Origin: Lutraria lutraria
Taxonomy: Eukaryota > Mollusca > Bivalvia > Venerida > Mactridae
Reading direction: 5' to 3'
NCBI GenBank assembly: GCA_964023205.1
Contig: OZ026834.1
Coordinates: 47,177,029-47,241,028 of the forward strand
Length of the DNA stretch: 64,000 nt
In this document: positions 7,640 to 60,715 of the stretch, in pieces
Numbering within the stretch: the stretch's first letter is position 1
Layout: every line of letters begins with the position of its first letter
Position numbers and translations under genes: made by a program
Notes under the pieces: generated by a model
Databases searched by the model: none
The model's input: the letters and a program-made list of their open reading frames with translations, nothing else
What the model was told of the DNA's origin: nothing

Positions 7640-7975
7640 TCACTTTCTAGAACAAAGGCCTATTACAGGCCTATTCTCAATTGAAAATTTCTTTAAAATC
7701 ATGCAGTTCTCAACTTAACCAGCTATTTTGATATTTGTTTTCCCAAATCAGCAATTTTAGCCATAACTCTTCCCAAAATCAACAGGCTAAGGTCTCTTCC
7801 GGGGTTAATATCAACCGGCCGCAGACCAATTTAGCCGCTTAGATTTGAAAATAGTGCTGGAAAATGTCTTGACCCCACCCCTATCAGGCCTGTTAGTCTA
7901 GCTTTTGGGCATGTTAGCCACACATTTATTGAAAACCCTGCACTTCCCAATGAAGAGAGAAAAAATACTGTTCCA
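7640..7975. repeat. dispersed repeat (two adjacent families)
   Basis: The left half (AACAAAGGCCTATTACAGG...) recurs at about 34,555-34,720. The right half (GGCCTGTTAGTCTAGCTTTT core) recurs at about 21,205-21,375. No coding capacity or clean termini are seen. Confidence 0.6.
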
Positions 7976-8014
7976 GTTCTCATGACATTATTTGTATTCT
8001 TTTCTAGTTTAATA

Positions 8015-11000
8015 ATGTCATCGTCAACTAGAGTGTATGTTGGTAGAATACCTAGTGACACAAGAGAGAAAGATATTGAACGTTTCTTTAAAGGATATGG
8101 AAAACTAAGAGAAGTACTTCTAAAGAATGGATACAGTTTTGTGGTAAGTATGTGAGAACCATCTGTGAAGGAGATCAGTCTTTGTGAGATTGCTGATAAC
8201 AACTAGATGCCAATCAAATTGTAAACACTTTTTTTAGAAAACTGGCTTTTTTGTGAAGAAAAATCCTGCAATGTAGAAGCAATTTCTCCACATGAAAGTC
8301 TATTCTAGGACGCTAGATTTTGATTTGCTATTTTTTTAAAGATTGCGTACATTCTGGGCTCATATGCATGAAAATCCTGCATCTGTATTCATTGATGAAC
8401 TAAAATACTGTTAAACTTCCACTCTATCTATTTGTGACAGGAACATCAGAAAGCTAGGGAGGTAACTCATGAAAATAAAAAAAATCGTTTAAAATCTTAC
8501 TATTTAAAAGTCTCACAAATTTCATTGATATAAAGGACACAATTCTTAAAATATATTAACATTTTCATTTAGGAATTTGATGATCCTAGAGATGCGGATG
8601 ATGCTGTTTATGAATTAAATGGAAAGGAACTCCTTGGTGAAAGGTAAGGTCTATATAGTATTATATTTAACTTATATTCTGAATCATTAAATTTTGTGTT
8701 TATTTGAATTATTTCTGGTATCATAAGTTTTTTGTCAGGATTGTTGAACGTAATTTTAAATGATTTTTTTTTCACATTATGTAATTATTGTATTTCATAT
8801 CATTATAGGTTGATCATTGAACACGCTCGTGCTTCACGTGGCCGTGGTGGTGGTAGCGGTGGTCGAGGAGGAGGTAGAGGATATGGTGGTGGTGGTGGTG
8901 GTGGCGGATACGGTGGTGGTGGTGGTGGATATGGCGGAGGAGGTGGTAGATTCGGAGGAAGAGACAACAGATATGGAGGAGGTGGTGGCGGCGGTGGACG
9001 TCGTCCTGGTGGAAGCCAAGGTGGTGGTGGTGGCGGCAGGTAGGATCTTATTAAGTTCTTCTGAATGAAAATCTGTCTTGGTGCCTTGTAAGTCCTTGGA
9101 AATTTTGTTGGCTGACTTTGCTCGTCCAATTATCAGCTAAGGGTAATTTTTTACCCTCAATTTCTGACGTCTTGTGTAAATTAATGAAACACAAAACTAA
9201 TTTTTTTACTATGATTGGCTTGAAAATCGAATATATATATTTAATATAAACTTAAAGAATGAAGATTATTGATGGTTATTGTTTTATACAGATTTGGTCC
9301 TCCACAGAGAACTGATTACCGACTTAGAGTTGAGAATTTATCATCAAGAGCTAGCTGGCAGGTAAGACTAGTTCAGAGATATAAGAGTATTGAACTCATG
9401 GTCTTTCGCATAAAACTTACTCTTTAAATATAAAAAATATTTTTATGAAATCTAAAATTTTCTTTTTATATAAATTCTTGTCCCTTGTATGTCTGCTTTA
9501 TTTCTATAATGTTTTAGAAATTAATGAATCTTGACTTCCATATTTTTATGCTTTTCCTATTGTTAACCTCCAATCGTTGATGACTTTCATCTGCATGTTC
9601 ATCCATCCTTAATAATGATGTGCCATCTCATTGTCAATCACTACATTTAATACCATCTGTTATCTATACAAATTGACAAAATAATATAAAACTTCTGTTC
9701 ACTTGTGTGAAAACTGATTTCCCATTAAAGCTATCCTAGGCTAAATAATATTAGCATGTAGTTGATGGATAAGCATGGAAAAAGATCAGTTTTGAATTAA
9801 CTTTTGGACTGAAGTTTTATATCTTTTTCTTATCTATGATGGGTGTGCAGGTTACCTCTTATTGAGGTGAAGATATAATATATATAACTATTGGGTTGCA
9901 GCATGAATCAAAGGAACTACTCCGTATAGTGCATATTACCATATCTGTGTGTGATCTATTGCGGGTTTAGGGTGACCTACTTGTTACTGGACACGGCTTC
10001 TGGGATGGATCAAAACCTTGCTATTATCCCTCGTTTTCACATAACGTGGAAACTAAAGTTTCATACAAGATCTTTTCATTTCTGACTTTTTGTAATATAC
10101 TTTTTTTAAGTGTTGAGCTAAATTTTTTAACAATTTTTTATTAATGAATGATATCTTCTATTTGTTCATTGTAAAATTTCTGTAAATTTCTACTTGATGT
10201 TTCTTTTACTTTCAGAGAATAGGTTTCGTAATATGAGAATCACTCTTAAGGTTTGGTCCCTAAAATAACAAGCAGGGTTTTGAGCGAGTGTACCATTAAG
10301 TTTTGTCTGCACACGGTCGGGTTAGACTTTTGCCTCACGCAGGTACAAGAACAGGCAGCCATCTAGGTTCACCCCTTGAAGGTGTCCATGCGCGAATGTC
10401 AGATAGGAGAAACCGGTTCATGGCGGCCATCTGTGCCTCACCCTTTGATGGCATCCGTACGCCAACTGGCAGGCATAGTCAGCCGTTGTCTGGTCAAGAT
10501 CGCTTGGTTGCATATAAACAGGCCCTGGGTCACGCACCTTTAGTTTGGTATTGATATTGGTCGAGTTACGCATAAAGCCCCTGTCAGCCGGGTAGGAGAT
10601 TATCCACAGGGCATTTTAACAGGTCTGAACGATATACAAGAGTGAGGTAATTACATTAGGATTTTCTGGCCAGTTCTGAGCTATGATTTATTCATAATGT
10701 TTTGTTCTTTGTACATTTTCATTGTATAACAGAGCATGTTTCCCCTAGTATCGGCGATTCCATATTTAATTGTCGTAATGCATATTAAAAGATGATATTC
10801 AACTGAAAGAATATTGTACTATGTTAAAAAAATGTATTTTGAGGTAGATTGGCAATAATTTTTTTTGTTTTCTTTATATTATCTCCTGCTTCAAGTATAC
10901 ATGCAGCTTGATAGATCTAGATTCCCTGGACACTCGACCTACAAGGCAGAAGAAGCAAGCAAGTCCAACACAGATAAAACGTTCATAGATATCGTTACAG

Positions 11001-12345
11001 TTTAATTCAAATATTTTTTTCTGTCCGTTTTCCAGGATCTGAAGGATCACATGAGATCTGCTGGTGTTGAAGTATCATTTGCTGATGCCCATAAACAGAG
11101 GACAGGCGAAGGGTTAGTAGAATAATTTAATAATACTAAGGGTTTTATTTATTGTATTGTTGTAGCTGGTAAAGTGCCTTCCCCTCTGAAAATTTCTTTG
11201 AAGTCATGCAATTGTCTCCAAATGTCCAAATTTACTCCTTGAAATTTCTTTCCTCAAATTGGTTTCGGGCAAGAATATTTTCACACAAAGAGGCTTCAAC
11301 CCGCTTCAACCCGCTATCTCATCCTTATGTTAAGGACTAGGACACCTTCCCCAAAATGTAAAGATGTCAGAGGATTTCATAATTCATTTTAATAGCCAAA
11401 TCAAATTTTCAAATATTCTGGTATAAATTTAAATGTTACTGAATTTCACTTGTATATTGTGTTTGAAATTTTATTGTTTGTAAAATAATCATTTCTTCTG
11501 TCTATATTTTGTAGAGTTTGTGAATTCACCAGTGAATCAGACATGAATCGTGCCATTGAAAAGTTGGATGGTACAGACATCAATGGTAAAAAGATCAGAT
11601 TAGTTGAGGAAAGACGAGGTGGTGGCGGAGGTGGAGGATTTAGAAGCAGAAGAAGGTTAGTAGCACTCTTATCTCAATTCAATGTCTTCACGGATAACTT
11701 TTTCAATGACCGGACATTCGGTCTTGTGAAGACACAGATTTTACCAGACCGAATGAAATGCATTCTAGACTCTATCAGCTCAAAATTTCACCAGACCATT
11801 GGTCTGGTAATCTGTCAATTTCTACCGGACTGGTAGTGATTAACGGACTCAGTCTTCGTACCTGTGGCTCAATTCGAAGACTGCAATGTATTAAGAAGTT
11901 ACGTATAGGTCAATGGATGGAACGTTGGTCTTCTGATAAAGAGGTCTGTACAGTTATGTGTCACAGAGAACTGCAAAATCATGTGTTAATTCTTATTTCC
12001 TTAAACAATATAAAAAACACTTAGTAATGAATGTCGCGGTTTTGTTATTTTTCACTGTATACATATCATTCAATTGATCATTTTCATAAAGCATCATGTC
12101 ACTGTATTGCTTTGCCTCATTCATGTTCTTGTCAGATGTTGATCCTATTTTTTCCAAGCTTGTATCATTTTTCATAACTCATCAAACCTCGTCTTTTATC
12201 TCATCTTAACTTCAGTTTTTCACGCAGCAGATCCCGATCTGAGAGCAGAAGCCGATCTAGATCCAGTCGTAGTCGTTCTAGATCAAGCTCACCACCAAAG
12301 AAACGCTCACGCACAAAGTCTGGGGATGATCCCGAAGACGATTGA
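8015..12345 (+). CDS. SR-family splicing factor (SRSF4/5/6-like), Gly-rich linker
   Basis: Nuclear RNA-binding protein that promotes exon recognition and regulates alternative splicing. Coding exons: 8015-8143, 8573-8643, 8809-9039, 9292-9361, 11036-11112, 11515-11655, 12228-12345; joined length 837 nt, 278 aa plus stop, all introns GT-AG. RRM1 (about residues 5-74) shows RNP2 VYVGRI and RNP1 NGYSFVEF. A long Gly/Arg linker follows (about 75-143). The second, pseudo-RRM carries the hallmark [10 protein letters not shown]. The protein ends in a short RS domain and an acidic tail (SGDDPEDD). The start ATG follows a clear acceptor and gives the typical SR N-terminus. Compared with the minus-strand gene, the RS domain is much shorter (about 30 residues) and the linker more glycine-rich, so it is a diverged paralogue; an hnRNP-like function is possible but less likely given SWQDLKD. 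Intron 4 contains a probable poison exon, suggesting autoregulation through nonsense-mediated decay. Confidence 0.93.
10216..10646 (+). other. candidate poison (NMD) cassette exon in intron 4 of the plus-strand SR gene
   Basis: A strong 3' splice site (TTTCTTTTACTTTCAG, ending 10,215) and a good 5' splice site (GAG|GTAATT at 10,646/10,647) bracket 431 nt that are clearly richer in GC than the rest of the intron. Exon 4 ends in phase 0, so inclusion would read RIGFVI and then stop at TGA (10,234-10,236), truncating the protein inside the second RRM. SR genes are known for autoregulatory poison exons. Use of this exon is inferred, not shown. Confidence 0.5.
11675..11890 (+). repeat. dispersed repeat with AATTCGAAGACTGC end
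   Basis: Lies in intron 6 of the SR gene. Related copies are at about 30,330-30,620 (+) and 58,720-58,960 (-). They share GGACATTCGGTCTTG-like and ACTGGAC-like blocks; this copy and the 30,330 copy also end in AATTCGAAGACTGC. Non-coding. Confidence 0.55.
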
Positions 12346-16711: not shown

Positions 16712-17113
16712 TTATCATTGATGTCAACAGCACTACCTTTACTAGTATGACAGTTTAAATATTTACAAAATAAGAAACTTGCATGAATAATATAATATTA
16801 TCGTTAGATAAAAACATATATGATACAGAAGACTTGCTCCCAAAATGGTAACTATACAATGATTATCACAAGTATTAACAGTATATACAAATGACTGACC
16901 AGAACATGAAGAACAAATGGAATTAGCGTGCATATCATTAAACAGAAATGATCGATAAACATTTTTAAAAGTTTGTTATGCTACTAGACTTAAATTAAAG
17001 CTTATAAGTATCTATTAGAGTTAGCAATACAACAAATCATTAATGTAAGTTTACGAACAAAATGATCCCTGTGTTAAGTGACAGCTTATTACATATATAA
17101 TATTTTTCAACTC

Positions 17114-20100
17114 TTATTCATCATTTTTATCTTCTTCCATGTCATTATCAGGCGTTTTAGATCGTGATTTTGAACGAGATCGGGATCTTGATGGTTCCTT
17201 TTCTACACTTTTTGATCTAGATCTCGATTTTGACTTGCTTTTAGATCGACTCTTTGATCTGCTCTTGTCACGACTTGGGCTCCTTGACCTTGATTTAGAA
17301 CGTGAACCAGATTTCCTTGACCTAGATCTGGAACGAGATGATCTCCTACGCCTTGATCGAGAACGACTTCGGCTTCTACTGTCAGATCTTGATCTTGTGG
17401 ACCTAAAAGACAGAAAATATTCATCAGCTAAATTTAGTTCATGACTACAGAATCTGAAAATCAGATTTCCATTCTATGAATAACTGAACACACGTTTCTT
17501 GTATTTTTTTACAAGTTTAACCATTCATCATATTGAATCAAACACACAAAGTGTTTGTCTGCTGATCGAGATGTCTGAATTAAGTGGGGTAGCTTGGCAG
17601 AAGCTTATGGATAGAATGTGGTTAGTACTGGTTAAGGCCTGAATGAAGTCCAGGAAAGCTGTTAAGGATAACTGCCCGCCACGATACAATTGAAATAATG
17701 TTGAAAATGGCTTTAAATCCGATAAAAAACAATAAAGAAACAAATTATTAGAACTATCCTACCTCCTGCGTTTTCTTGGTTTATCTTCTATCAATTTAAT
17801 TTTCCTGCCATTTATTTCGGAACCATCAAGTTTATCTACAGCTCTCTTCAGGTCATTATAAGACTGAAACTCCACAATCCTGAAAGTTGTAGTATATACA
17901 ATATTAGTTTATCACTATGTACATATACCACAGTAGCTGACGGTAAAATCAAAACTTAGGTAAGTAAATGATATAACTTCAAATGAGAATGGCTCAGGGT
18001 TTACAGGGCTCATCATAATCAGTCCCGTCTTGAAACAACATCACAGCCATCTTAATAACAATTCATCCATAACATCCAACACATGGAAAATGATGTAATG
18101 GTTACTATTTGTCATAAGACTATAAAAGTGAAAGGCTAACATAATTTATAGATCAGCAGGCTTTAATATTCAACATGAATAAGGTGTTCAGTGAGGTTTG
18201 TCAACATAATATTCTGACCCGAAAGATGGACATCATTACACCTTTTCTTCACATGTTCTGTTCATATTGAAAATTCTCTCACCAAGGACAATTAAACAAT
18301 AGAATGAAACAATAATAGGAATATTAAGAAACTTGATAGCTCAGTATTCTAAATATCATCAAATTCAGTCCCGTCTTGAAACAAACATCATGGCTATCAT
18401 TTCTCAGCATTTATTGATTTTAAATTGCATAAATTAAAAGTTTACCATAAATTGGTAACTGATAGAAACAACCGATTTTGAACTAAAAATTACAACACAT
18501 GAAACAATACATAAGGACAATAGAATTTCTGGTAGACCTTGGTGTTCAGTGAGGTTTGTCAGCATAATATTCTGACCCGAAAGATGGACATCATAACACC
18601 TTTTCTTCACATGTTCTGTTCATATTGAAAATTCTCTCACCAAGGACAATTAAACAATAGAATGAAACAATAATAGGAATATTAAGAAACTTGATAGCTC
18701 AGTATTCAAAATATCATCAAATTCAGTCCCGTCTTGAAACAAACATCATGGCTATCATTTCTCAGCATTTATTGATTTTAAATTGCATAAATTAAAAGTT
18801 TACCATAAATTGGTAACTGATAGAAACAACCGATTTTGAACTAAAAATTACAACACATGAAACAATACATAAGGACAATAGAATTTCTGGTAGACCTTGG
18901 TGTTCAGTGAGGTTTGTCAACATAATATTCTGACCCGAAAGATGGACATCATAACACCTTTTCTTCACATGTTCTGTTCATATTGAAAATTCTCTCACCA
19001 AGGACAATTAAACAATAGAATGAAACAATAATAGGAATATTAAGAAACTTGATAGCTTAGTATTCAAAATATCATCAAATTCAGTCCCGTCTTGAAACAA
19101 ACATCATGGCTATCATTTCTCTGCATTTATTGATTTTAAATTGCATAAATTAATAGTTTACCATAAATTGATAACTTATAGAAACAACTGATTTTGAACT
19201 AAAAATTACAACACATGAAACAACACATAAGGACAATAGAATTTCTGGTAGACCTTGGTGTTCAGTGAGGTTTGTCAACATAGATTTCTGACCCGAAAGA
19301 TGGACATCATTACACCAATGGAAGAAAATACAACTATGATCATGTGTGTGCTCAGAATGAATACAAAATAATTAATCTGGACCATACTGTTACATTTTAT
19401 AACACTTGCACTATATTAACTCACAGCACCTAAATCTGAATTACACGAATATTTTTAAGATAATGCATTTCTTTACATCTGGCATTTACATTAAGTCAAA
19501 TCATTATCATATTACCCTAGTATTTATAATGATACATGTCCTACAGATTAGATGTAAACCTATTTATGCTATTAATCAGATCCTAATTTTTAAAGCATGT
19601 GTTGATGTTCAGTGAGGTTGGTCAACATAACAATTCAGACCCGAAAGATGGACATCATTACATCAACTAGAAATAGGACACAGATGTAATTAATACCAAA
19701 AAACAAATTCAAGGACAGATAACTTCATCTTCAGCCTTTGACAGAGTTAAACCCTCTACACACAACTTAATATGCTGATTAACATTGTTGTACAATTTCA
19801 TAATTCTGTCCGAATTCTTTTCAAGGTGTGAGACAAGATTTTCGAATGGATGGACAACGGTAAACTTATATAGATCCCATCTTCTTTCCGAGTGGGAGCA
19901 AAACCAATGATGCTCGCTATAAAGCACATAGCGAGACTTGACATATTGATGTTCAGTGAGGTTGGTCAACATAGCAATTCAGACCCGAAAGATGGACATC
20001 ATTACATCAACTAGAAATAGGACACAGATACAATGCCAAAATACAAATTCAAGGACACAGTCTTCAGCCTTTGTCTTTTTTTTTGTTTGTTTACACCGAG

Positions 20101-23100
20101 TTATACGCCCCTTTTCAACAGTCAGAGTCATATGAGGCGGACCGTTCACCTAAGCATCGTTCCTTGGAAGAACCAATACTAGACTCCCATCCTCCATAAG
20201 CAATTGCCTACTTTCTCAAATAAAGAGACATAGTCGGTAATTGGGTTTGAACCCAATACCCTCCATCAGTGAGAGGTTACAGTGATTTGAAGTCAACAAC
20301 CTTAACCACTTGACCACTGAGACAGGCCTTTGTCAGAGTTAAAACCCTTTATGCACCACTTTCTGTACAATTTCATCTCTGCCCTAATACTTTTTGCTTG
20401 ACAAGATTTTGGAAGACAGACAAGGGTAAACCTTTCAGAGTATGGGCAAAACCATGACAAGTACATTTATCTATAATCTAAACTGATGCTTGCTTTAAAT
20501 CACAAACTTGACTTGTTGATGTTCAGTGAGGTTGGTCAGCATAAGATGTCAGACCCGAAAGATGGACATCATAACATCAACAAAGGCAAGTTTAGTAATC
20601 TAAAAAGATGCTTGATTTAAAGCACATACACACGTGTTTAGTGTCTACACACACAGATCATTGAATCATTTCAATGCCTTATAGTTATCTTTGTAACTAC
20701 ATTTGGAAAATTTCATACAAACAAAAAATGCAAGCTTACCCTTCGTTTTTCCTGTCTCTATGAGCATCAGCATATGTCACTTCACCAGCCTGTCTCATGT
20801 AATCCTTCAAGTCCTGAATTGGAAAAATAATACTTTACAACCAACTGCAAGATCTTGATAAAAATAAATGAGAACAAAGACTGAGCAGGAAGCAATAATA
20901 AAATCACATCTTGTATTTATACCTCTACCACAAGCATAGAAACCTTACCTTCCAGTAAATCACCTTACCATTTTCCACCTATTTCTAGTTATGCCTAAAT
21001 TTTGATACATATAACTTATTTATATTTACATTTTACAAAACTATTTTATCAATGATAAGCCTAACAGATCTACAAAAAATAATATCTAAATACAATACAA
21101 TGAACCTAGAACTTGTATTCACCCATTAAAATGCTTACGCAAATATACTAAGTATGGCTTAAATGATGGCCAGATAAATGAAAGTAAAAAATTGTATAAT
21201 ATCCAGGGTTCTCAATAACAAACAGACCACGGCTGATTTGGCCGCTTAGGAATGAGTTTCGGTCAGTTAGTTTTAAAAATATTGCTGAAAAATTTATTAG
21301 ACCCCCATCTCCCCTAGCAGGCCTGTTAGTCTAGCTTTTGGGCCAGTTGGCAACCAACTTGTAGAGAACCCTGAATATGCACAGATCCTAGGTACATTGC
21401 ATTGCTTCCTATAATAAAATAGAAACAACATTCTGCATCGCTCACAATATCTCCCATTTCATAAATTACCTCCACGTCAAGATTTCACATGAAACAGTGA
21501 GTTGTGGGGGATGTTAGCCAAAGGATGTTATTGACCTCTAAATGGTCCTCGTCTTTATGTGCCTTAATCAGCCAGAAAATGCCTCGCATCCCTGACACTT
21601 TAAACCAGCCAGTAAACCATGGAACACCCAAGCAAGGTTACATCTTTGAAAGTCAGAACGTACGTCATAGCATTTGCATGCCAGTCAATCGTCAGTCCAA
21701 GAATATACTAAAATAGTACATTCTCAAAATGCTGAACTTATGCCAAAAAAGTTATGCCAATGTACAAGTACATTGTTCTACATTCTGACCCTACTGAGTT
21801 AAGTTATGCTTCATGAAGATAACCACACTCAGTTTATCTGGGCAAGGTAATTTCTTCTGCAGAAACATCTGATCTTCTGACAATGACCAAAATGGTGGCC
21901 CCAGTGGGAGATGGTTGCATGAACAAGTTGTGGGTGGGTGGCGCATACTGCTGGGCTAGCCCCTTGTGCCAACATGGATTGCTTTGAGCCTTGAGCCTAC
22001 TGACTGATGTGGCACCTCTACTAAATTGCCTCTATTGATTGAGTGATTCTGGCTTGCTCCAATTGATCATGGGTCCTTATGATGTAAGAGAGCGACACTT
22101 CATATTAAAATATATGTTTAGAAACAGAGTTTTAAGTTTTATTTTTGAAAAATTTAAGCTCAAAAAGTGCTCATTATACCAGATTGCAATTTTGGCCAGA
22201 TATACACAACAAATTTTTTTTTATAAATTAAACTGACACCTTAATTGTCTTAACAGTCAGAATCAACATACCATCATATCCAAATATGGTTAAATCCTAA
22301 TTTTGGTTTAACTTCAAATTGATAAAAATCCTAGTTCGGCAACCTGACAATAAACTTTCAAATGATAAAAATTCTTCTATATTGACATATAAAGCCAGAA
22401 ATGAAACAATAAATTTTAGATCTGAATCGAAGGATCACTAAAGTTTAGCATACATTCAGATCCAAGTAAGAAGGAATCATTCAACAAGACACTTACCTGC
22501 CAGCTAACTCTGGATGACAGATTTTCAACAATTAACCTGTTGTCAGTTCTCGTAGGAGGACCATATCTGTAAAATAAAAATTCCATTCAAACCATTCAGG
22601 ATTACTTAACAGTTAAGTCAATTTGAGAACAGTATAACTCTGAACGTAACAAGTTTTTGTGACCAAGTTCTTAAAATGAAATCAACATTATTGAACAAAA
22701 CTTTAGAGCTCAATAAATCGAATAGGGCTCAGGTAACATTCAAAACTAGAAGGTAAAATCTACTTTTAAAACCTTGTACAGACAAAGGGACAAGGCAATC
22801 AATGTATGTAAATTACTAGTAATTAGATGCTGGGGGGCATAGAAGTGATCATTACAAACTATGACAAGAAGAAACTTACTTGTCTCTTGCACTACTTCTT
22901 CGTCCTCCACCACCACCACCACCTCCTCCTCCTCCACCTCGTCTTGATTGTGGATGTCTATCATAACTACTATCATAATATCGGTCAGAACCCCTAGGAG
23001 TTCCTCGAGCGTGCTCAACACTCACTCTGTAAAAAATCCATTATGTCATATCAAAGAATCATCTAAACATAAGAATACAATTAACAAAACACAACAAAAG

Positions 23101-23712
23101 AATTTAATTTGTAGCTACTGATAAAGTCTGAGGTTTATGAGAAGTTTTACATTTCTTCAATGCAATGTTTTCTGAAAGATTTTGCATCAATAACCTGACA
23201 GGCACAGCAAATATTCACAGAATATTGGCAATGATTGACTAATGGAATAGTGACGTGTAAGAAAGCATTCAATTAAGAATAATTCTATTATAGAATGAAG
23301 AAATGTTACTTTAGACATTAGACTTTGTTAGCATTATAGTTTACCTCTCTCCACACATGTCTTTTCCATTTAATTCATATACTGCATCATCAGCATCTCT
23401 GTAATCTTCAAATTCCTGAAATAGAAGTAAAATATGACTTACTTATAAAATCTGCAGTATTATATTCATTGCTATCATACATTAAATTTCTAAGAGAAGT
23501 TATTTCAAGTTTTTTAATTAAAAACATTGAATTGATCATCAATTTTACAGTTAAGGCAAAGGAAATTACATTAAATTATAACTACTCACCACAAATCCAT
23601 AGCCGTTTTTCAACATAATGTCCTTCAATCGACCATATCCTTTGAAAAATCTTTCAACATCTTTCTCTCGGACATGGTATGGTAACCTTCCTAGATATAC
23701 TCTAGTTCCCAT
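17114..23712 (-). CDS. SR splicing factor, SRSF4/5/6 orthologue group
   Basis: Pre-mRNA splicing regulator acting in the nucleus. Coding exons in transcript order: 23712-23590, 23415-23345, 23026-22880, 22566-22497, 20813-20740, 17879-17763, 17402-17114; joined 891 nt, 296 aa plus stop. RRM1 begins [20 protein letters not shown] with RNP1 NGYGFVEF. A Gly/Arg linker (about 70-115) leads to RRM2 with [20 protein letters not shown] and a [12 protein letters not shown] block. The last exon encodes about 85 residues of Arg-Ser repeats and an acidic tail (DMEEDKNDE). The similarity to vertebrate SRSF4/5/6 is very close. The 71-nt second and 70-nt fourth exons match the plus-strand paralogue exactly in length. 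A non-coding first exon ends at 24,130 and is spliced to the acceptor just upstream of the ATG (exon start 23,720). Intron 5 (20,739-17,880) hosts the snoRNA array, and intron 4 has a weaker poison-exon candidate. Confidence 0.95.
17577..17735 (+). mobile_element. SINE 3' fragment
   Basis: Contains the block GGGGTAGCTTGG, TGGTTAGTACTGGTTAAGGC and the end GAAAATGGCTTTAAATCC. It matches the 3' parts of the fuller copies at 35,169 and 60,432. The tRNA-like head is missing. It lies in the last intron of the minus-strand SR gene, antisense to it. Confidence 0.75.
17989..18050 (-). ncRNA. C/D-box snoRNA, family 2, copy 2a
   Basis: On the minus strand: terminal stem ATGGCT/AGCCAT, box C GTGATGT, guide TTTCAAGACGGGA, box D' CTGA, box C' ATGATGA, box D CTGA. 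The guide is complementary to the invariant large-subunit rRNA segment CCCGTCTTGAAACA. It is the most diverged copy and the one closest to the host 3' splice site (about 108 nt upstream). Confidence 0.8.
18183..18242 (-). ncRNA. C/D-box snoRNA, family 1, copy A
   Basis: Box C ATGATGT, guide CCATCTTTCGGGT, a D'-position CAGA (non-canonical), C'-like ATGTTGA, box D CTGA, terminal stem GGTGT/ACACC. The guide is complementary over 13 nt to rRNA ACCCGAAAGATGG. Same strand as the host intron. Confidence 0.8.
18334..18399 (-). ncRNA. C/D-box snoRNA, family 2, copy 2b
   Basis: 66 nt. Terminal stem TGATAGC/GCTATCA, box C ATGATGT, guide TGTTTCAAGACGGGA, box D' CTGA, perfect box C' TGATGA, box D CTGA. 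The guide pairs with rRNA CCCGTCTTGAAACA; the D'+5 rule points to the G of CCCG. From memory this matches the site assigned to vertebrate U21 (SNORD21), ten bases 5' of the U18 site. Confidence 0.87.
18541..18600 (-). ncRNA. C/D-box snoRNA, family 1, copy B
   Basis: Same architecture as copy A with box C' ATGCTGA (closer to consensus), box D CTGA and terminal stem GGTGTT/AACACC. The D' position reads CAGA. The guide CCATCTTTCGGGT is unchanged. Confidence 0.82.
18692..18757 (-). ncRNA. C/D-box snoRNA, family 2, copy 2c
   Basis: Differs from copy 2b only in the short C'-D spacer. All boxes and the terminal stem TGATAGC/GCTATCA are intact. Confidence 0.87.
18899..18958 (-). ncRNA. C/D-box snoRNA, family 1, copy C
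   Basis: Box C ATGATGT, guide CCATCTTTCGGGT, D' position CAGA, C' ATGTTGA, box D CTGA, terminal stem GGTGTT/AACACC. Belongs to the third 358-bp unit. Confidence 0.82.
19050..19115 (-). ncRNA. C/D-box snoRNA, family 2, copy 2d (box D altered)
   Basis: Same as 2c except that box D reads CTAA instead of CTGA, which should weaken or abolish the C/D kink-turn. Guide, box C, D' and C' are intact. Probably a decaying copy. Confidence 0.7.
19257..19316 (-). ncRNA. C/D-box snoRNA, family 1, copy D
   Basis: Guide and boxes C, C' and D are as in copy A, with changes between D' and C' (D' position CAGA). Terminal stem GGTGT/ACACC. It starts the partial fourth unit; the sequence beyond it no longer matches the 358-bp repeat. 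Confidence 0.8.
19601..19667 (-). ncRNA. C/D-box snoRNA, family 1, copy E
   Basis: 67 nt. Terminal stem GTTGATGT/ACATCAAC, box C ATGATGT, guide CCATCTTTCGGGT, canonical D' CTGA, C' ATGTTGA, box D CTGA. The longer stem and canonical D' make this a better-formed member than copies A-D. Confidence 0.87.
19946..20010 (-). ncRNA. C/D-box snoRNA, family 1, copy F
   Basis: Terminal stem TTGATGT/ACATCAA, box C ATGATGT, guide CCATCTTTCGGGT, D' CTGA, C' ATGTTGA, box D CTGA. The spacers around E, F and G are related to each other, so these three form an older duplication series. Confidence 0.87.
20076..20325 (-). mobile_element. tRNA-derived SINE
   Basis: Minus-strand element with an A-box-like head (GTGGTCAAGTGGTTAAGG), B box GGGTTCAAACCC and an A-rich tail. 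It is flanked by the target duplication GCCTTTGTC (20,067-20,075 and 20,326-20,334). It sits in the spacer between snoRNA copies F and G and splits sequence that is continuous in the E-F spacer, so it arrived after that duplication. Confidence 0.88.
20515..20581 (-). ncRNA. C/D-box snoRNA, family 1, copy G
   Basis: The best-formed copy: perfect 9-bp terminal stem GTTGATGTT/AACATCAAC, box C ATGATGT, guide CCATCTTTCGGGT, D' CTGA, C' ATGCTGA, box D CTGA. The guide is complementary to rRNA ACCCGAAAGATGG. The D'+5 rule selects the G of ACCCG, which I recall as yeast 25S Gm805 (snR39b site). Confidence 0.9.
21205..21375. repeat. dispersed repeat, copy of the 7,795-7,975 element
   Basis: Shares the core GGCCTGTTAGTCTAGCTTTT and a GGCCGCTTAG-like block with the copy upstream of the plus-strand SR gene. 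Lies in intron 4 of the minus-strand SR gene. Confidence 0.65.
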
Positions 23713-24129
23713 ATTGATATCTACAATAGAAAATAAATAAATCTATCAATAACAATGGACAATGAAATTATGAATGAAATTGGGAGAACCACGTGTGGGC
23801 AGCGGCTGTAAAAATGCCTCTCACTGGCGTGATACTGTCGTTTAGAACCAGGAATAAAAGACGTACAACCACATTTTATTAAATAGAGATGACCATATAC
23901 CGTGAATTTAAAATATATCCACTAAAGATCACAGATCCTGATAATAATGCCCGGTAATGTCTGAACTCAAATGGGTGGGGTATGAAATTGAAAAATAAAA
24001 CAAAACTAAGTTTCTGTATGATAAATGAAAGCGCATAAATTCACTGCATTCAGTCGCCTGCACAGCTTAAATGAAAATCTAAGATATTAATTTGCTACAA
24101 CATGAACAAATATTAAGAAAGAAGCATAC

Positions 24130-28125: not shown

Positions 28126-60715
<32,590 letters not shown>

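Follow-up and report, generated by a model that had tools for sequence, protein, structure and literature searches.

Small nucleolar RNA (snoRNA) genes grouped within one intron, in so-called intronic gene clusters, were described from rice and then from Drosophila (PMC2780460). Intronic clusters are listed as one of the snoRNA layouts in a 2024 review, which describes one snoRNA per intron as the predominant arrangement in animals (PMC11028025). Tandem amplification of one box C/D family is known from the SNORD115 and SNORD116 arrays of SNHG14, which are described as occupying 48 and 29 introns, respectively, with one copy in each (PMC11608373). Two vertebrate box C/D guides are also relevant here: SNORD2/snR39B (RF01299), a single copy in intron 3 of EIF4A2, and SNORD21/U21 (RF00068), in an intron of RPL5. 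We analyzed a 64,000-nt stretch of the bivalve Lutraria lutraria (contig OZ026834.1, positions 47,177,029 to 47,241,028; hereafter the window), in which eleven box C/D snoRNA elements of two families lie in a single intron of an SR-protein gene.

The locus, where a single intron contains several snoRNA genes, all eleven on the host strand, has the layout of the rice and Drosophila clusters. It differs from them in having eleven copies, two C/D families, a partly tandem arrangement, and an animal protein-coding host; the Drosophila study concerns, by its title, box H/ACA snoRNAs. It shares the tandem amplification of a C/D family with SNORD115 and SNORD116, but here all the copies share one intron. 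Both the guides and their grouping within an intron are of known kinds, but so many copies in one animal intron look unusual. What is distinct here is the scale (eleven), the C/D type, the host, which is an SR-protein gene, and the amplification, partly in tandem, of two families predicted to serve neighboring rRNA sites. An earlier reading of this DNA from its letters alone (the sequence-only reading) had presented the locus as exceptional. This is too strong, as intronic clusters are known from rice, from Drosophila, and from the 2024 review, although one snoRNA per intron predominates in animals. Among the matches listed in our literature search, no title concerns an SRSF host of such an array, which is not a claim that none is published, and no title concerns bivalve intronic snoRNA genes. 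The same search returned no match on host genes for SNORD2 and SNORD21 jointly, and for sn668 its one match was a Candida paper.

Judged by its sequence, the locus is a cluster of real guide genes enlarged by tandem duplication. We put the probability that it is an intronic cluster of working box C/D guide RNA genes at about 0.75. The support comes from the boxes, the terminal stems, the D' guides exactly antisense to large subunit (LSU) rRNA, the placement of the elements on the sense strand of an intact host gene, and the tandem duplication.

The eleven elements are at 17989-20580, all on the minus strand, in a 2860-nt GT-AG intron (20739-17880). Their order along the host strand is S2a (20516-20580), S2b (19946-20010), S2c (19602-19666), S2d (19255-19318), S21a (19052-19113), S2e (18897-18960), S21b (18694-18755), S2f (18539-18602), S21c (18336-18397), S2g (18181-18244), and S21d (17989-18050). 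S2a to S2g constitute family 1, of the SNORD2 type, and S21a to S21d constitute family 2, with a predicted guide for the SNORD21 site. The intron extends 159 nt before S2a, and 109 nt separate S21d from the exon. The sequence-only reading had placed seven and four elements on the host strand of a 2.86-kb intron in an SR-protein gene, the last about 108 nt from the 3' splice site, and the intron, the host, the count, and the place all hold. It was also right about the C/D identity, but left the families unnamed. In the window, the models for families 1 and 2 (R1 and R2) found these eleven elements and otherwise weak matches only (R1 at 35990-36049, 17.0 bits, and at 42851-42913, 13.3 bits; R2 on S21c, 15.1 bits).

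The elements have the C and D boxes near their ends and a terminal stem, as expected for box C/D snoRNAs. The C box is RTGATGT in all eleven, ending in T and not in the consensus A. The D box is CTGA in ten of the eleven; in S21a it is mutated to CTAA. The D' box is CTGA in S2a and CAGA in four of the seven family-1 copies (S2d to S2g). The C' box of family 1 is ATGTTGA or ATGCTGA, one base off RUGAUGA. A terminal stem of at least five pairs is present in 11/11 elements, although S2e and S2f keep only the inner five of seven pairs, the two outer ones being broken. The claim of the sequence-only reading that a terminal stem and C, D', C', and D boxes occur in each element needs correction in the ways given above, for the D', C', and C boxes, the D box of S21a, and the stems of S2e and S2f. 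Box C/D RNAs carry little structure. The folding energy of the elements is undistinctive (z -1.14 to +0.41 over the eleven) and neither supports nor weakens their identity.

The guides were compared with rRNA from ten contigs (L001 to L010), fetched by an LSU motif. The reference was L004, which has a eukaryotic small subunit (SSU) rRNA, a 5.8S rRNA, and an LSU rRNA confirmed with Rfam, the LSU being cut at its 3' end. In all seven family-1 copies, 13 Watson-Crick bases to the L004 LSU stand directly before D'. In all four family-2 copies, 14 Watson-Crick bases to the same LSU end one base before D'. Among 20,000 random guides of the intron composition, none reached 13 and nine reached 12. The family-2 target is present in 10/10 contigs, as it is built into the search pattern, and the exact family-1 target 13-mer is present in seven, being absent from L001, L005, and L007. 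In 28S rRNA, the predicted target bases are the G in ACCCGAAAGATGG and the first G in CCCGTCTTGAAACA, with a distance of 164-188 nt between them in the LSU rRNAs measured. When G-U pairs count and duplexes may lie anywhere, lengths of 14-15 are found, which is not rare, as 30 shuffles of S2a gave 11-15 over the 8-kb locus. The case for the guides rests on Watson-Crick pairing together with position. No second guide was found at D, where the longest complementarity to the LSU is 8 nt and is matched by 1,888 of the 20,000 random guides. The ten contigs are filed under bacterial genomes while holding eukaryote-type rDNA motifs, which is contamination of public bacterial assemblies. The L004 locus also contains three group I introns.

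The predicted sites agree with described methylation sites. The chicken snR39B is listed with 28S-G-1457, a 5' guide, and intron 3 of EIF4A2, and the chicken U21 with 28S-G-1253, a 3' guide, and intron 4 of RPL5 (PMC2653536). The human SNORD2 site is given as 28S 1509 (PMC10324135), and the family-1 guide sequence is the one predicted for this G. We read the chicken G-1253 as the G paired by family 2, judging by the motif and by the U18 site, which the chicken table places at a distance of 10. It is most likely that the two guide families direct methylation of these two rRNA sites.

Family 1 shares with SNORD2 the guide before D', the 28S target G, the terminal stem, and the C and D boxes. It differs from SNORD2 in its D' boxes, in its length (64-65 nt versus 69 positions of the model), and in being present seven times within a single SR-gene intron. 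The seven copies align as a single family, with 41.5 (S2c), 40.6 (S2b), 36.6 (S2a), 32.1 (S2g), 29.8 (S2d), 27.5 (S2e), and 26.4 bits (S2f) against RF01299, whose gathering score is 37. Family 1 is assigned to SNORD2/snR39B. Family 2 aligns end to end in overall layout with RF01162 (sn668), at 36.5, 34.1, 33.4, and 30.3 bits over the full model (gathering score 40). It shares the 28S target and the guide core with SNORD21, but against RF00068 it reaches 26.6, 24.8, 24.8, and 23.7 bits (gathering score 63), and the overlap is the common guide. The family-2 guide is at D', whereas the chicken table lists that of U21 as 3', and the host is not RPL5. Family 2 is assigned to neither RF01162 nor SNORD21, yet bears the predicted guide for the SNORD21 site. 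A reading of family 2 as vertebrate-style SNORD21, with the guide ending at D and the body extending upstream (for example, 19171-19072), was rejected because of these scores; by eye, the one match inspected does not begin with a C box (19171).

The covariance-model search that the sequence-only reading had proposed recovers minus-strand matches. In the whole window, with E up to 0.5, Rfam reports six of the seven SNORD2 copies and all four RF01162 matches. The two highest-ranking SNORD2 copies have E-values of 7e-05 and 1.2e-04, and the top family-2 copy has 4.4e-04. S2f is missing and is recovered at E 0.073 once the search space is 6 kb. Two family-1 copies (S2b and S2c) and no family-2 copy are above the gathering scores.

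The terminal stem of family 1 covaries. It is TTGATGT/ACATCAA in S2a to S2c, TTGGTGT/ACACCAA in S2d, and AAGGTGT/ACACCTT in S2g, with changes on both sides in three of the seven pairs. Of the 49 stem cells, 91.8% are paired, versus 24-50% when the partner is slid. For the paired share, for the number of cells with both sides changed, and for the covariation score, 2/500 shuffles reached the observed value; the shuffles are lenient, since the rows are related.

Between older copies, the elements are also better conserved than their 70-nt flanks, where shuffled 70-mers average an identity of 0.51 with a maximum of 0.62. The identities for element versus flanks are 64/65 versus 55/76 and 39/76 for S2b/S2c, 59/65 versus 44/82 and 47/82 for S2a/S2b, 59/65 versus 40/83 and 38/76 for S2d/S2g, and 48/63 versus 43/79 and 42/79 for S21b/S21d. 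S21d (stem ATGGC/GCCAT) is the most diverged family-2 copy. All seven family-1 copies have the same guide, C box, and D box, including those with diverged flanks. Inner copies, namely S2b, S2c, S2d, and S2g, are among the older and better-kept ones. A functionless repeat is rejected for the older copies by the guide complementarity, the family-1 stem covariation, and the conservation of elements over flanks; the rejection does not extend to the youngest units. An exact family-1 20-mer had no match in viral contigs, and phage records gave no match either; both are non-animal collections and uninformative on conservation.

A 358-nt unit, which in full contains one family-1 and one family-2 element, is repeated in tandem 3.2 times at 18183-19316 on the minus strand. 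The units are 97-99% alike over 300 nt. They differ from one another; therefore, they are not a single copy assembled twice, and their exact number depends on the assembly. S2e and S2f look recombinant: their 5' arm and mid bases are as in S2g and their 3' end is as in S2d. We infer that S2d and S2g underwent unequal exchange at a point within the snoRNA and so gave rise to them. One base of S2e and S2f, the T at position 8, is in neither presumed parent. Such copies suggest a route by which C/D genes may multiply, namely unequal exchange that breaks within the snoRNA itself. S2a is flanked by a 34-nt direct repeat (85%) at 20474-20507 and 20596-20629, and by eye similar wording follows S2b and S2c. 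This repeat may be the trace of an additional SNORD2 unit that once lay upstream. Between S2a and S2b, a structured insert (20085-20345, minus strand) is SINE-like, with an A-rich end and a stretch that by eye resembles a tRNA promoter; it has no second copy within the window.

Several observations weigh against a cluster of working guide genes. The Rfam scores are below the gathering score in five of the seven family-1 copies and in all four family-2 copies. The number of family-1 pairs changed on both sides was reached by 87/500 shuffles and the pair types by 304/500, and in family 2 one of the five pairs is of this kind, a number that 119/500 shuffles reached. The S2b/S2c upstream flanks are 0.72 identical, above the shuffle range, and thus incompletely randomised. 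The linkers after S2a and S2b are 74% alike over 77 columns (blastn), so the linkers of S2a to S2c share descent. Gene conversion is able to mimic conservation, and today's inner copies were possibly outer ones earlier. In the young units, the elements are no better kept than the linkers: units 2 and 3 differ at 2/126 element and 0/232 linker bases, and units 1 and 2 at 7/126 and 6/232, five of the seven being bases shared with S2g. The D box lost from S21a is kept in S21b to S21d, and S21a is probably weak or dead. These young units and their high similarity, the broken D box of S21a, and the shortened stems of S2e and S2f are what a neutral tandem expansion predicts, in which one or two copies per family work and the others are young, decaying duplicates. 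As an account of the whole array we regard it as quite unlikely, because none of the seven family-1 copies departs from the others in its guide, C box, or D box, even where flanks have diverged. It fits the young units (S21a to S21c, S2e, and S2f) better than the older copies.

If the elements are working guide genes, the copies would be transcribed together with the SR-protein pre-mRNA, and a snoRNP would assemble on each. The intron would be spliced and debranched, and its ends trimmed by exonucleases. Trimming after debranching frees the ends only and alone would trap the inner copies, so these need cuts in the linkers, which are A+T-rich and unstructured. The seven SNORD2-type copies would then direct the 2'-O-methylation of a single G in 28S rRNA (human 28S 1509), the four family-2 copies that of the nearby G at the SNORD21 site, and the multiplication of copies would raise the dose of both guides. 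Across 12 linker segments, which have a G+C of 0.26-0.40, the structure is nowhere out of the ordinary (60 shuffles per segment; z -1.93 to +1.78). The S2a-S2b linker, with its structured insert, has the lowest z, and no RNase-III-type processing hairpin was seen in the linkers. This absence of an endonuclease-marking hairpin favors an alternative in which only the outermost S2a and S21d mature, or a chain of snoRNPs of about 2.6 kb persists like sno-lncRNAs, with the inner copies protective or passive. Exonucleases acting after debranching would halt at the outer snoRNPs, and introns with two snoRNAs are reported to give sno-lncRNAs (PMC11028025). We consider this alternative unlikely, as the older inner copies retain the guide, the boxes, and a covarying stem amid diverged flanks, which is unexpected if they are passive. 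The sequence-only reading had offered two options, endonucleolytic processing of a polycistronic intron or maturation of the outermost copies only. The conservation of the inner copies leans towards their maturation, and on balance we think it somewhat more likely than not that most of them mature. A farther-reaching version, in which the intron is a polycistronic operon that supplies as many as eleven snoRNPs, serving two methyl sites, from one splicing event of the SR gene, the inner copies are cut out at the linkers, and the dose of two marks is tied to a splicing regulator, is tentative and rather doubtful.

Hidden mini-introns with one snoRNA each would be another way of release. With approximate weight matrices, no donor of at least 4.5 was found inside the intron, although a weak donor could be missed; five of the six true host donors score at least 4.8 and the sixth 2.9. 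The acceptor score is uninformative, with -2.6 to 1.9 for seven true sites. The array could instead act in cis on host splicing, for which human SNORD2 in EIF4A2, covering the branch point, is the model case (PMC10324135). This is very improbable here, as in the part covered, the 109 nt at the 3' end of the intron, pairing does not exceed that of shuffles for any of the eleven elements (15-74% of 200 shuffles were as low). If the inner copies do mature, the locus offers a natural experiment on the release of many snoRNAs from a single intron in animal cells. Some bases occur in one copy or in a small group of copies only, which makes it possible for ordinary small-RNA reads to answer this question.

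The host gene (17113-23720, minus strand) encodes an SRSF4/5/6-type SR protein. Its seven coding exons (23720-23590, 23415-23345, 23026-22880, 22566-22497, 20813-20740, 17879-17763, and 17402-17113) are joined at GT-AG sites into an intact protein of 296 residues, with two RRM stretches and, by eye, an RS tail. The array-bearing intron interrupts the coding region of RRM2. For the first 201 residues, the best solved relative by sequence is SRSF6. Among the best 120 of 2080 hits, four of the five best homologues are bivalve SRSF4/6-like proteins, from Crassostrea virginica (74% identity), Ostrea edulis (73%), Saccostrea echinata (75%), and Dreissena polymorpha (79%), each covering 66% of the query; the fifth is a firefly protein, 53% identical over 94%. 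A second SRSF4/5/6-like gene lies tail-to-tail with the host gene at 7835-11836 on the plus strand, with an RRM1-like open reading frame (ORF) at 7835-8155 and an RRM2-like end at 11489-11836, both by eye. Neither the Rfam searches nor the R1 and R2 models gave a snoRNA match in it.

Elsewhere in the window, a weak SNORD75 match is found at 511-571 on the plus strand (24 bits versus a gathering score of 50, E 0.052). At 2217-2337 there is a long near-palindrome, in which 109 nt match their reverse complement at 88%. Several miRNA families match both of its strands below their gathering scores, and it is more like a MITE than a miRNA. In the region 37939-60470, plus-strand ORFs at 37939-38196, 42247-42570, and 60195-60470 resemble pieces of an INO80-type helicase by eye.

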